NCBI RefSeq assembly: GCF_000484535.1 | Contig: NC_022600.1 | Location: 3,782,001 to 3,846,000 of the forward strand | Reading direction: 5' to 3' | DNA length: 64,000 bases | DNA from: Gloeobacter kilaueensis JS1 | Lineage (GTDB): Bacteria > Cyanobacteriota > Cyanobacteriia > Gloeobacterales > Gloeobacteraceae | Shown here: positions 2,989 to 7,718 of the stretch, one piece after another | Position numbering within the stretch: position 1 is the first letter of the stretch | How the letters are laid out: every line of letters starts with the position of its first letter | Made by a program: the position numbers and the translations under genes | Notes under the pieces: model-generated | What the model saw: only the letters and a program-made list of their open reading frames with translations | What the model was told of the DNA's origin: nothing | Database searches by the model: none

Positions 2989-4437
2989 TCAAAGCGGTTC
3001 AGCGAGGATGGTTCCACTGCGGGGCGGCAGTTCCAGCTGGAGTTGCGGCCCATCGCAGCTCGCTGTCCCTGGCCCAAAGACGACGGAAGCAGGAGTACCT
3101 GGCGGAGCATCGAGGACGGCGCGGGCAGGTTCGGTACCGGCGTTGACGGCCACCAGCACCGTCTCGTCGTCCAGGCGGCGCTCGAAGACGTAGCTCTGGC
3201 CTGAGGCATGGAGGCTTTTGTAGCTGCCGGTGCGCAGCGCCCGGTAGCGGTGCCGCAGGGCAATCAGCTCGCGGTGGTAGGCGAGCAATTTGCGGTCCCA
3301 CTGCGTCTCCAGCGGAAAGCCCTGGCGCGAGTCGGGGTCGATGCCGCCGGGCAGGCCCACCTCGTCGCCGTAGTAGATGCTCGGTGCGCCCGGAAAGGTC
3401 AGTAAGAGCAAGGTGGCGATCTCGACGCTTTCGCGGTCCCCTCCGGCGATCGTCATCAGGCGGGCGGTGTCGTGGCTGGCGAGCAAGTTTAGCTGGGTGA
3501 GCTGAAGCTGCCAGTCATAAAGTGATAGCAATCTCTCGATCGTGGCAGCATATTCGACGGCAAAAAGGGCCGGATAGGGCTTGTAAGAGCGGTCCTGAAC
3601 GTACTCCATCTGAACGCGATCACCGGCGGCAAAGGCAATTGTCGGTGCGGCAAATAGATAGTTCATCACTCCGTCAAACTGCGTGCCGTCGAGCCACTGG
3701 CTGGCATCGGTCCAGATCTCGCCTACGATGTAAGCTTCGGGATTGATCGCCTTGACCCGCTCGCGAAATTCCTGCCAGAAACCCTCGGCGGTGACGCACT
3801 CGGGCACATCCAGCCGCCAGCCGTCGATACCGGCCCGGATCCAGTACTCGGCCACCTCCATGATGTACTCGCGCACCACCGGATTGTCGTGGTTGAACTG
3901 GGGCAGGGCGCGGTTGTTGTCCCAGCAGGCGTAGTTGGCCGGCTGCTCGACGTTGTAGGGCGACAGCGGCCAGGCGTCAATCTTGAACCAGTCGAGCCAG
4001 GGGGAGAGGCGGCCATTTTCAAGAATGTCGTGAAAGAAGAAAAAGCCCCGGCTCGCGTGATTGAAGACACCGTCTAAGACGACTTTGATATGGCGGCTAT
4101 GGGCAGCTTCTAAGAGGGCAGCAAAAGCTTCGTTGCCCCCTAAGAGCGGATCGACTTTGTAGTAGTCGTGGGTGTGATAGCGGTGGTTGCTCGCCGACTG
4201 AAAGATCGGGGTAAAGTAGATGGCCGTGATCCCCAGTTCCGTCAGATAATCGAGTCTTTCGATCACCCCCCATAGATCCCCTCCCTTGTAACCATAGAGC
4301 GTCGGCGTCGAAGCCCAGTCCTCGAAGGCGACCGCCGAGAGGAGCTTCTGCTTGAGCTGCTGGCTGCGGGAGAAGCGGTCGGGGAAGATCTGGTAGAAGA
4401 CAGCGTGCTTTACCCAGTCGGGTGTGTGAATCTGCAT
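2989..4437 (-). CDS. GH13 alpha-amylase family glycosidase (neopullulanase/cyclomaltodextrinase type)
   Basis: This 482-residue TIM-barrel enzyme should hydrolyse alpha-1,4 (and perhaps alpha-1,6) glucan bonds in the cytosol. The GH13 regions are all readable: DGVFNH near 122-127, GWRLDVPE with nucleophile Asp210, VGEIW with acid/base Glu240, and ASHDTAR with the transition-state Asp323. The product starts directly in the catalytic domain (WVKHAVFYQIFPDRF), so it lacks the N-terminal CBM34-like domain usual in neopullulanases of about 580 residues. No signal peptide is seen. AAGGGAA lies upstream of the ATG. It may work with the debranching-type enzyme at 31 kb in glycogen turnover; exact substrate preference cannot be read from sequence. 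Confidence 0.93.
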   Translation of the reverse strand: MQIHTPDWVKHAVFYQIFPDRFSRSQQLKQKLLSAVAFEDWASTPTLYGYKGGDLWGVIERLDYLTELGITAIYFTPIFQSASNHRYHTHDYYKVDPLLGGNEAFAALLEAAHSRHIKVVLDGVFNHASRGFFFFHDILENGRLSPWLDWFKIDAWPLSPYNVEQPANYACWDNNRALPQFNHDNPVVREYIMEVAEYWIRAGIDGWRLDVPECVTAEGFWQEFRERVKAINPEAYIVGEIWTDASQWLDGTQFDGVMNYLFAAPTIAFAAGDRVQMEYVQDRSYKPYPALFAVEYAATIERLLSLYDWQLQLTQLNLLASHDTARLMTIAGGDRESVEIATLLLLTFPGAPSIYYGDEVGLPGGIDPDSRQGFPLETQWDRKLLAYHRELIALRHRYRALRTGSYKSLHASGQSYVFERRLDDETVLVAVNAGTEPARAVLDAPPGTPASVVFGPGTASCDGPQLQLELPPRSGTILAEPL

Positions 4438-4542
4438 CGATGGTTCCCTTTAGAACTTCGTCATCTCAAAAAAGGCTGGCCGGTCTTTCGGGATGCTAGA
4501 ACCGTGTGTTATGAATCGATAGATAACGTCGAATGTGTGTAC

Positions 4543-5274
4543 ATGGCTTATTCGCGACGGTATTTTCAGTTTTACTCCCACGTCCTGCAGCGGGATCTCG
4601 ATGTACTGCATTTCGGAAATTGGGGCTACCCGATGCTCGTCTTTCCTACCAGTCGCGGACGCTTTTTTGACGCCGAGGACCGGGGTTTGATTGCCAGTTT
4701 GCACCGGCACATCGATCAAGGATATCTCCAGGTATTCTGTGTCGAAACTCTCGATTGGGAGTTGCTGCTGGCTTGCGGGGTGAGCTTCGCCGAGCGCCGC
4801 GAGCGCTGGCTTGCCCTCGAGCGCCACTGGACGGACGAATTCATTCCTTACGTTCGCCACAAGGCCCAAAACGACTTTCTGGTGGCGGCGGGCTGTTCGC
4901 TAGGAGCGACCCACGCGATCAACCTCACCCTGCGCCATCCCGATCTGGTGCGGCGCGTACTGGCAATGGGCGGTCCCTACGACCTCGACAACATCGCTTC
5001 GCTCTTTGGCAAGGGCGGGCCAGAACTGAGCAGGCAGCTGTACTTTATCAACCCGATGGCCTACATGGCCAACATGAGTTACCAGTACTGGCTGCAAATG
5101 GGCGGCGGCCACACCCAGATTAATCTGTTGAGCGCCCACCACGATTTTTGCTTAGACGATCATCTCCGTCTGGCCGGTCTGTTGGGTCGCAACGGCATCG
5201 ATCACCACCTCGAAGTCTGGGACGGTGGCCACGACTGGCCGGTGTGGTGCGCTCAAATTGCCGCTTTCGCGTAA
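4543..5274 (+). CDS. Esterase-like alpha/beta hydrolase paired with an ATP-grasp enzyme
   Basis: The 243-residue product has an esterase-D-like fold. The nucleophile elbow is GCSLGA, with Ser at about 125, followed by a strand/helix typical of alpha/beta hydrolases. A C-terminal GGHDWPVW motif supplies the probable catalytic His. The start at ATG 4543 gives MAYSRRYFQFYS; the frame is open further upstream, but that part runs into the divergent GH13 start and looks non-coding. It ends 15 bases before the ATP-grasp gene, so the two are probably one transcript. The reaction and substrate are unknown. The tight pairing suggests both act on one metabolite or peptide. Confidence 0.85.
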   Translation: MAYSRRYFQFYSHVLQRDLDVLHFGNWGYPMLVFPTSRGRFFDAEDRGLIASLHRHIDQGYLQVFCVETLDWELLLACGVSFAERRERWLALERHWTDEFIPYVRHKAQNDFLVAAGCSLGATHAINLTLRHPDLVRRVLAMGGPYDLDNIASLFGKGGPELSRQLYFINPMAYMANMSYQYWLQMGGGHTQINLLSAHHDFCLDDHLRLAGLLGRNGIDHHLEVWDGGHDWPVWCAQIAAFA

Positions 5275-5289
5275 GGAAAAAAGACAACC

Positions 5290-6369
5290 GTGACCATCCA
5301 CGATTTTTGGGTCGGTAGCCTGCATTTCAGCGAAGCGTTTGGCGACGATACAGTTGCCCGCCTCAACGCCCTGGCACCGATTACCGCCTGCGACGGCAGG
5401 CAGTACAAGATCCGCGCCGAGCACATGGCGATCCACGAGGTGCCGCTCTCCTTTCAGACCAAATATGGTCTCATCATCGATCGCTACAGCTACCTCTATC
5501 CCCAAGCAATCGGCGTATTCATGGGCTACGCCTTTCGCGGCATCTACTTGATCAACAACCCCTTCGGCTTTTACTACTACCTCAACAACAAGGACGCCGC
5601 CTACATCGTGGCGCGCGAACTGGGGATTTCGATTCCCAGAACTTATATCCTGCCGCCTAAAGAAGCGCCCGCCCTCAATCAAAATGACTTTCGCTACCAC
5701 CGCCACTTCGATTGGCAGGGGATGACCGAGGAGTTGGGCTGGCCCCTGGTGATCAAGCCCGCTGACGGCAAGGAGGCGATCGGCTTTAATATTGCCCACA
5801 GCATGGACGAATTGCTCTACTACTACAACCAGTCCGGCTCGAAGGTGATGCTGTTGCAGCAGAAGGTGCGCACGCCCTTTGCCTGGCAGATCCGCTGTCT
5901 TTGTATCGGGCGCAGGGTCATTCCGATCAAATACATCTTCCGCAAGCAGGACGCGAGCGAATATCTCTACGACCCGCAATTTTTGGGGCCAGAGCTGGGC
6001 CAGCGCGTCATCGACACCTGCAAGATCATCAATCGCCTGCTGGGCTACGAGATGAACTCTGTCGAATTTTTTATCGACGAAGACGGCACCCTGCAGGCGA
6101 TCGACTTCAACAACCCGGTCCCGGACGGACGGCTGAGCGCCCTGGGGACGATCTTCTACGAGGACTATCAAAAGGCTCTGGTCGAACTGGTGAGCGAGGT
6201 CGTCGCCCACCAGCGCTCGATGGACTTTATCCCCGCCGAGATCAACACCTTTGCTCAGATTGCCCGGCGCAAGGATCTCACCACCGAGCAAAAGTTTCAA
6301 GAAGCCCTCAAGCTCGCCAACCGCTACTACGAACCCGCCGAAAAGCTCCTCCAGCCCTCCAGTGTCTGA
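5290..6369 (+). CDS. ATP-grasp ligase-like protein (RimK/carboxylate-amine ligase fold)
   Basis: The 359-residue product has ATP-grasp features: GWPLVIKPADGKEAIGF (phosphate-binding Lys and Gly-rich loop) near 155, and EFFIDEDGTLQAIDFNNPVPDG near 256, where acidic and Asn residues would bind magnesium. Family members use ATP to join a carboxylate to an amine or thiol through an acyl phosphate. The start is GTG with an AAGGAAAAAA ribosome site. The N-terminal 90 residues (many Tyr, NNPFGFYYYLNNKDAAY) look like a substrate-recognition part. It lies directly after the esterase gene. No specific family name is recognised, so substrate and product are unknown. Confidence 0.85.
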   Translation: MTIHDFWVGSLHFSEAFGDDTVARLNALAPITACDGRQYKIRAEHMAIHEVPLSFQTKYGLIIDRYSYLYPQAIGVFMGYAFRGIYLINNPFGFYYYLNNKDAAYIVARELGISIPRTYILPPKEAPALNQNDFRYHRHFDWQGMTEELGWPLVIKPADGKEAIGFNIAHSMDELLYYYNQSGSKVMLLQQKVRTPFAWQIRCLCIGRRVIPIKYIFRKQDASEYLYDPQFLGPELGQRVIDTCKIINRLLGYEMNSVEFFIDEDGTLQAIDFNNPVPDGRLSALGTIFYEDYQKALVELVSEVVAHQRSMDFIPAEINTFAQIARRKDLTTEQKFQEALKLANRYYEPAEKLLQPSSV

Positions 6370-6532
6370 CTCGACACTCAACCCAGCCGCGTCGTCTGGG
6401 CCGCCGTCCGCTGCGTAGATCGGCTGATTTTTGCCCGTTGCCGAACAGGTAAGCTGATGGAGCAGGCGCGTTGATGTGCTGGCACACGCCATTACAGACA
6501 AAACGCATTACACCCACTGATCAGACTTTCAA

Positions 6533-6964
6533 ATGAGCGACAAAGGTTTAACCCACGTGGCGCTGGCGGTGAGCAATCTCGATGCCAGCATCGCCTTTTA
6601 TGGACGCTACGCCCAGATGCAGGTGGTGCATCGCCGCAAAGATCCGGTAAATGGCACTCCAGTGGCCTGGATTACCGATCAGACCCGGCCTTTTGTGATC
6701 GTGCTGATCGAACAGCCACCGGTCAAACATCCGCTGTTGCCCCCTTCACACCTGGGGGTGGCCTGCGGTAGCCGCGAGGAAGTCAGACACCTCTGCGATC
6801 AGGCCCGCGAGGAAGGCTGTCTGAAGGCCGGGCCCGACGATTATGGACCACCGGTGGGCTACTGGGCCTTTCTAAGCGACCCGGACGGGCACATCCTCGA
6901 ACTCAGCCACGGCCAGGAGGTGGCTTACACCGTCGAGCAGTCCCAGACGGCCAGCCACTCGTAA
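6533..6964 (+). CDS. VOC (glyoxalase/bleomycin-resistance fold) protein
   Basis: The 143-residue, single-domain protein contains two beta-alpha-beta-beta-beta modules. Module one starts THVALAVSNLDASIAFY, and module two centres on SHLGVACGS and DPDGHILELSHG. His8, the His in SHLGVA and the Glu in ILEL are the expected metal ligands. Members catalyse isomerisation, ring opening or drug binding at a divalent metal; the substrate here cannot be told. It converges on uppS, with stops a few bases apart. Confidence 0.85.
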   Translation: MSDKGLTHVALAVSNLDASIAFYGRYAQMQVVHRRKDPVNGTPVAWITDQTRPFVIVLIEQPPVKHPLLPPSHLGVACGSREEVRHLCDQAREEGCLKAGPDDYGPPVGYWAFLSDPDGHILELSHGQEVAYTVEQSQTASHS

Positions 6965-6968
6965 AAAA

Positions 6969-7718
6969 TTAGACTTTGCCGAAGCGGCGCTGGCGGCCCT
7001 GGTAGGACTTGAGGGCAGCGTGAAAGGCGGGTCGATCGAAGTCGGGCCACATCAAGTCGGCGACGTAGATCTCGGTGTAGGCCATCTGCCAGAGCAAAAA
7101 GTTGCTCAGGCGCGACTCGCCGCTGGTCCGGATGAGCAGGTCCGGGTCGGGCAGCTCGTGGGTGTAGAGGTGCTGGGCGATGAGCTTTTCGTCTACTTCT
7201 TCGGGCTGCAACTGGCCGAGGCGGGCCTGCTCGACGAGCCTACGGCACGCCTGGACGATCTCCTCGCGCGCTCCGTAGTTGGTGCCGACGGTAAACTGGA
7301 CGCCCGTGTTGGTCGCTGTCACTGCCATCGCTTCGCGGATGATCTGCTGCAGCGCTTCGGGTAGCAGGTAGAGGGCCCCGACAAAGCGAATGCGCACCCC
7401 CTCCTCGACCAGCTCGGACAGTTCGCGGTGCAGCACCTTCTCGAACAGGGTCATCAAAAATTCGACCTCGTAGCGGGGACGGCCCCAGTTTTCGGTCGAG
7501 AAAGCAAATACCGTGAGGGCTCCGATCCCCCAGTCCTTGCAGCAGCGCAGCAATTCTTTGAGGGCATCGACCCCCGCCTGGTGGCCTTTGACTCTGGGCA
7601 GGTGGCGCTGGGCTGCCCAACGGCCATTGCCGTCCATGATCGCAGCGACGTGGTGCGGAAGGCGGTTGGGGTCAAGATCGGCGGGCAGGCTGCGCAGGAG
7701 CGTATGCGGCGTGGTCAT
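6969..7718 (-). CDS. uppS: Isoprenyl transferase (undecaprenyl diphosphate synthase)
   Basis: This cis-prenyltransferase extends farnesyl diphosphate with isopentenyl diphosphate to make the C55 lipid carrier for peptidoglycan and glycans. The signature [11 protein letters not shown], with catalytic Asp29, opens the protein. [11 protein letters not shown] and the C-terminal pair DLLIRTSGE / [10 protein letters not shown] are also present. The ATG at 7718 gives 249 residues, the usual size. The frame is open further upstream, but that would run far into cdaA. The start lies 4 bases after the cdaA stop, so it is the last gene of lysA-cdaA-uppS. Confidence 0.95.

Follow-up and report, generated by a model that had tools for sequence, protein, structure and literature searches.

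An esterase and an ATP-grasp ligase gene in Gloeobacter kilaueensis as a candidate pared-down version of a widely distributed amide-ligase pathway

In 2009, Iyer et al. (Mol Biosyst) reportedly predicted that certain bacterial amide-ligase neighbourhoods are peptide-making systems. The open-licence literature, of which we had partial coverage, yielded no description of the esterase–ligase pair considered here and assigned no product to such a pathway; accounts elsewhere are possible. The words "esterase" and "ATP-grasp" do not occur in the main text of the G. kilaueensis genome paper (PMC3806779), and terms for esterase, hydrolase and GCS2 matched once in the CDC123 paper (PMC4431377), in its reference list only.

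The gene pair and its two products

The window, i.e., the whole stretch of 64,000 nucleotides of the G. kilaueensis JS1 genome that was analysed, contains the pair between two neighbours recognised by Pfam:

2989–4437, opposite strand (−): GH13 amylase-type gene, flanking the esterase side
4543–5274, + strand: esterase ORF, ATG start, TAA stop, 243 aa, PF00756
5275–5289, + strand: intergenic gap between esterase and ligase, 15 bp
5290–6369, + strand: ATP-grasp ligase ORF, GTG start, TGA stop, 359 aa
6533–6964, + strand: glyoxalase-type gene, flanking the ligase side

The initial annotation had described an esterase and an ATP-grasp ligase-like gene 15 bases apart, with no other biosynthetic gene adjacent. 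The ORFs, together with Pfam and fold assignments, confirmed the former, and neither the GH13 nor the glyoxalase type of neighbour is obviously biosynthetic. An AAGGA motif at 5273–5277, read directly from the sequence, overlaps the esterase stop codon and could be the ribosome-binding site for the GTG start of the ligase. No sigma-70-like promoter site was found in the 4300–6700 region. We also observed a 430-aa acidic, repetitive protein rich in Gly, Asp and Glu at 1615–2907, with no Pfam match at E 0.01, and, on the strand opposite the ligase gene, an open frame of 449 aa (5152–6501, − strand), which is probably a by-product of the G+C-rich coding sequence.

The esterase matched PF00756 (Esterase) with E = 2.9e-9 and 37.5 bits against a cut-off of 22, which places this alpha/beta hydrolase in that family. 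Its model had a pLDDT of 93.3, and the best structural matches were 4rgy, FphF, feruloyl esterases and FrmB (Z 20.1–24.1 over the 50 matches listed), with EstA, S-formylglutathione hydrolases and antigen 85 also among those listed. Two alignments, both containing the window sequence, were used to follow the catalytic residues (A4, 17 rows; A2, 12 rows). The candidate nucleophile Ser119, within GCSLG, is Ser in 17/17 rows of A4 and 11/12 of A2, the exception being Ala in the G008 row; His230 is invariant in both (17/17 and 12/12); and the candidate acid Asp201 is Asp or Glu in 15/17 and 8/12 rows, respectively.

No Pfam or NCBIfam model matched the ligase above any curated cut-off, and neither database names its subfamily. 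The best Pfam match below the cut-off was Dala_Dala_lig_C (E = 0.0076), and the NCBIfam model rimK_fam reached E = 1.2e-5 and 24.9 bits against a cut-off of 143.4, leaving the protein outside the RimK family as defined by that model. The structure predicted from the 51-row alignment A3 (the window sequence and 50 of the 82 extracted relatives) had a mean pLDDT of 92.8 and a clear ATP-grasp fold. Foldseek matched it to 556 PDB chains at E ≤ 0.001, and the 50 best listed were all ATP-grasp enzymes. Lys101, Lys156, Arg202, Glu259, Asp272 and Asn275 are identical in 51/51 rows and form the expected ATP/Mg site; the fold, the ATP lysines and the acidic and Asn Mg ligands assign the protein to the ATP-grasp superfamily. 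In a profile alignment with the D-Ala ligase 3r23, Glu259, Asp272 and Asn275 fall on its Asp, Glu and Asn, with one extra residue between Asp272 and Asn275 in our ligase. We take these three residues of 3r23 to be metal ligands. A lack of Mg-binding residues had been named beforehand as a finding that would speak against the proposal, and the metal-site residues are present in all 51 ligases.

When structural matches were ranked by VIA-align 2, RimK (5zct) was at the top (Z 23.6, rmsd 2.6, 265 aligned residues), with the RimK entries spanning Z 22.4–23.6. ArgX with LysW (3vpb) scored 22.5, LysX (3vpd) 22.1 and another LysX entry 19.7, synapsin 21.1, and D-Ala ligases and inositol-phosphate kinases about 20. 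Only RimK thus lies about 2 Z above synapsin, and ArgX/LysX (21.6–22.5) are nearly level with it. ArgX headed the Foldseek ranking, ahead of AMdnB (a graspetide ligase), LysX/ArgX and the D-Ala ligases. Because the ATP/Mg site is intact and the modelled fold is closest to that of RimK, the formation of an amide or peptide bond is the likeliest chemistry. The suggestion of an amide or peptide product made in the initial annotation is upheld to that extent. Its further phrase, "synthesis and release", is a guess and is unsupported as written, since PF00756 folds span both hydrolases and acyltransferases, antigen 85 being among the matches of our esterase.

The Foldseek matches listed for the ligase include AMdnB (7m4s, rank 4) and PsnB (7drp, rank 18), which is consistent with a graspetide-like system, in which a small ribosomally made precursor peptide would be cyclised by the ATP-grasp enzyme and processed by the hydrolase. 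Alpha/beta hydrolases do occur in some graspetide loci, according to PMC8939145. Among the 50 VIA-align 2 matches listed there is no graspetide ligase, although one may rank lower. We consider such a system highly improbable here. A total of 56 short ORFs (15–89 aa) at 3901–7600 of the window were compared with the related loci L058 and L038, and those with counterparts all overlap the two genes (4626–6369); no precursor-like short ORF outside the pair, flanking gaps included, has a counterpart in either locus.

Recurrence of the pair

The single ligase sequence, used as a query against contigs, gave 33 pattern matches, none of which was confirmed as a relative. The ligase alignment used as a query retrieved at least 571 relatives among 595 candidate stretches, of which the best 80 loci were kept; a plasmid search gave no match. 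The esterase profile matched 16 of the best 80 ligase loci (of at least 571), lying within 5 kb of the ligase in 15 of them. It was upstream of the ligase and on the same strand in 14: at 7–398 bp in 12 (L058, L072, L075, L076, L082, L090, L093, L099, L103, L104, L126 and L137), and at 916 and 2425 bp in two more. The esterase is on the opposite strand to the ligase in L084 and L095. The remaining 64 of the best 80 loci showed no esterase in the neighbourhood of the ligase; some loci are truncated by contig ends. The 12 close pairs come from Cyanobacteriota, Melainabacteria, Chloroflexota, Myxococcota, Gemmatimonadota and Acidobacteriota.

The two genes also occur together in a sample of 251 Chloroflexota genomes (the phylum of G310; matches at E ≤ 1e-20). 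The ligase was found in 61 and the esterase in 55, with 52 genomes having both, nine the ligase only, three the esterase only and 187 neither (Fisher 1.6e-40, with genome kinship ignored). In 24 of the 52 two-gene genomes the esterase is upstream, on the same strand and less than 500 bp from the ligase, and in eight more the genes are within 15 kb of each other. An unconserved pairing would have counted against the original proposal; instead, the pairing recurs in several bacterial groups, in 12 of the best 80 loci and in 24 of the 52 two-gene Chloroflexota genomes. As the same gene order recurs in other groups, the pairing is not due to chance.

It could still be argued that the genes are mere neighbours on a shared transcript, the esterase being a general carboxylesterase unrelated to the ligase. 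The esterase does occur without the ligase in the cyanobacterial genomes G008 and G213, and apart from it in Acidobacteriota. Against this stand the same order within 400 bp in six groups (the 12 loci above), the ligase in 52 of the 55 esterase-bearing Chloroflexota genomes, and the fact that the esterase also abuts another type of ATP-grasp gene (PF13535). We regard this explanation as quite improbable. The PF13535 neighbours were observed in G435, one of the esterase-only Chloroflexota, in which the ATP-grasp gene (3.3e-8; L199:7182–8396) directly abuts the esterase, and likewise in a genome of the cyanobacterial phylum (L056:7322–8482). Together they suggest that the esterase swaps ligase partners.

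Two further co-occurrence counts were not used as support. Whole-genome searches in 32 genomes of the best 80 loci, from mixed groups, found the esterase at E ≤ 1e-50 in 28, including 17 of 18 Acidobacteriota, in one of which it is split over two contigs. The count was set aside as none of 15 Acidobacteriota esterase regions (L182–L196, 4.8–13 kb) holds a ligase of the Gloeobacter-type family; inspected by eye, the genes beside the esterase there resemble those of penicillin-binding proteins or lipB. Besides the copies compared here, G320 and G331 have a second, weaker one of the esterase. In the cyanobacterial phylum sample, both genes were found in 13/292 genomes (Fisher 3.9e-16), and this figure is not relied on because several of the ligase matches are distant paralogues and the genes are adjacent in only two. 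In the other 11 they are on different contigs, many of the assemblies being fragmented.

G008, a genome without any ligase match, encodes an esterase relative (L041:9530–10261) whose nucleophile Ser is replaced by Ala (GCALG); this protein could be a relic devoid of catalysis or could serve in binding. The ligases of Cloacimonadota and Sericytochromatia that belong to the same close clade as ours have no esterase beside them among the best 80 loci. Searched in full, G300 of the Cloacimonadota and the 87%-complete G035 of the Sericytochromatia yielded no full-length esterase.

The Gloeobacter form and further ligases in relatives

In the ligase tree, which includes one very long row of unsure placement (L060_6697), the window sequence pairs with L058, from the metagenome-assembled genome of Synechococcus sp. 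M44_DOE_062 (72%), within a seven-row clade that also holds Sericytochromatia, Wallbacteria, Cloacimonadota and UBP17 rows (support 100/99). Genome G177 has the two proteins at 61% and 73% identity. Both L058 and G177, which are presumably of hot-spring origin, have the pair without a circularly permuted (cp) ATP-grasp or GCS2 gene beside it. A FemAB-like gene (PF04339) is about 230 bp downstream of the pair in G177 (L038:9677–10861), and an ORF that is near-identical to it by eye is downstream of the pair in L058 (11265–12488); no FemAB-like gene adjoins the pair in Gloeobacter.

In G. kilaueensis, too, no cp-ATP-grasp or GCS2 gene is found beside the pair, where the neighbours are of GH13 and glyoxalase types. 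The GCS2 and CP_ATPgrasp_2 genes of this genome are more than 100 kb away. CP_ATPgrasp_2 and one GCS2 have counterparts in 3/3 congeners that lack the pair and the second GCS2 in 2/3, so these genes cannot be assigned to the pair. Among the nine genomes in the order, both the ligase and an intact copy of the esterase are confined to G. kilaueensis. The congeners G294, G295 and G296 carry the same GH13 gene (81–82% identical over 1348 bp) followed by an esterase remnant, a DNA match of 124–129 bp at 76–81%, and the ligase is absent both from this stretch and from their whole genomes. This is most simply explained by an earlier presence of the pair in the genus and its loss from the three congeners.

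The neighbourhoods of relatives were clustered using ORFs of at least 90 aa in the best 80 ligase loci; contig-end cuts lower the counts, and the family names rest on one representative per cluster. A cp-ATP-grasp gene is near the ligase in 24 loci, a GCS2-type ligase in 23 and a subtilase in 13; the distance is within 5 kb in 23, 16 and 11 of these, respectively. Two families without a Pfam name are near the ligase in five loci each, and the remaining recurrent clusters resemble genes that are general neighbours in Acidobacteriota. Five of the best 80 loci (L099, L101, L102, L104 and L126) have the genes in the order esterase, ligase, cp-ATP-grasp, GCS2. The "compact two-enzyme system" envisaged initially fits Gloeobacter and its two nearest relatives; in other loci cp-ATP-grasp and GCS2 genes recur near the ligase, and given this recurrence, the two-gene arrangement looks reduced. 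On one Wallbacteria contig, a ligase of the Gloeobacter clade (46%) at 14.2–15.3 kb is accompanied by a cp-ATP-grasp gene at 12.0–13.9 kb and a GCS2 gene at 22.2 kb. A second ligase and the esterase immediately upstream of it occupy 37.7–39.5 kb, and all these genes fit within ~28 kb. This contig connects the Gloeobacter ligase clade to the larger ligase set.

One subtilase (PF00082), in a Caldilineaceae metagenome-assembled genome (L076:6939–8810), bears a CBM48-like domain (1.3e-7) at its C-terminus and is directly upstream of the pair; genes clustering with it were also observed in L082, L093, L101 and L103. Several Chloroflexota loci have subtilase genes close to the pair. This would fit a function in which the ATP-grasp enzyme, like RimK and LysX/ArgX, attaches amino acids to the tail of a protein or carrier, with the esterase taking off or editing an ester-linked form. 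The leading structural matches of the ligase act on protein tails as well, namely RimK (one entry with RpsF) and ArgX with LysW. We consider this function unlikely. No carrier or substrate protein is among the recurring neighbours, a set of ORFs of at least 90 aa from which a LysW-sized carrier would be missed. Moreover, small molecules are the usual substrates of GCS2 partners.

Proposed pathway and comparison with known systems

Our best reading sees the Gloeobacter pair as a pared-down version of an amide-ligase pathway that is widespread, with the esterase and the ligase probably forming its two-gene core. From its fold and residues, the ATP-grasp enzyme would use ATP and Mg to convert a carboxylate into an acyl-phosphate and then couple this to an amine, the type of reaction carried out by RimK, LysX and ArgX. 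The product would be a small amide- or peptide-like compound or an amino-acid tag. The role of the esterase is proposed with more reserve: presumably an active serine hydrolase, it may deacylate or trans-acylate the substrate or product of the ligase, either by unblocking an ester-protected carboxylate or by turning over an ester or thioester form. Of the set, just these two genes are found side by side in G. kilaueensis; the others would be missing or encoded at other places in its genome.

A bolder version, to which we give somewhat less than even chances, is an uncharacterised multi-phylum pathway with the esterase and the ATP-grasp enzyme as its core and cp-ATP-grasp and GCS2 enzymes performing further steps. 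G. kilaueensis and its nearest Synechococcus-type relatives would then have a minimal two-step form making a new amide metabolite or tag, with an esterase that is dedicated and not housekeeping. If right, the proposal would give a small, testable pathway core across cyanobacteria, Melainabacteria, Chloroflexota, Myxococcota and others. G. kilaueensis with its intact pair and the three congeners, in which the ligase is gone and an esterase remnant is left, provide a natural with/without comparison within a cultured, early-branching cyanobacterial genus.

The esterase shares the full-length fold and the conserved Ser and His with PF00756 enzymes (CE1 feruloyl esterases, EstA, FrmB/S-formylglutathione hydrolase and antigen 85), as well as the HDW motif (residues 230–232) with 5vol, but it is just 9–18% identical to the solved members listed. 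The ligase resembles RimK, ArgX and LysX over residues ~4–309 in the nine leading rows (Z 21.6–23.6, rmsd 2.5–2.8, 258–267 aligned), and the ATP lysines and the acidic/Asn metal site of these enzymes are kept in all 51 aligned ligases. It differs from them in being just 13–17% identical, and its residues beyond ~310 are outside most structural matches. Unlike the E-x-N of D-Ala ligase, its metal motif is D-x-x-N, one residue longer. The neighbourhoods of Iyer et al. reportedly also combine ATP-grasp, cp-ATP-grasp and GCS2-like ligases with peptidases or hydrolases, whereas the Gloeobacter pair stands without extra ligases next door.
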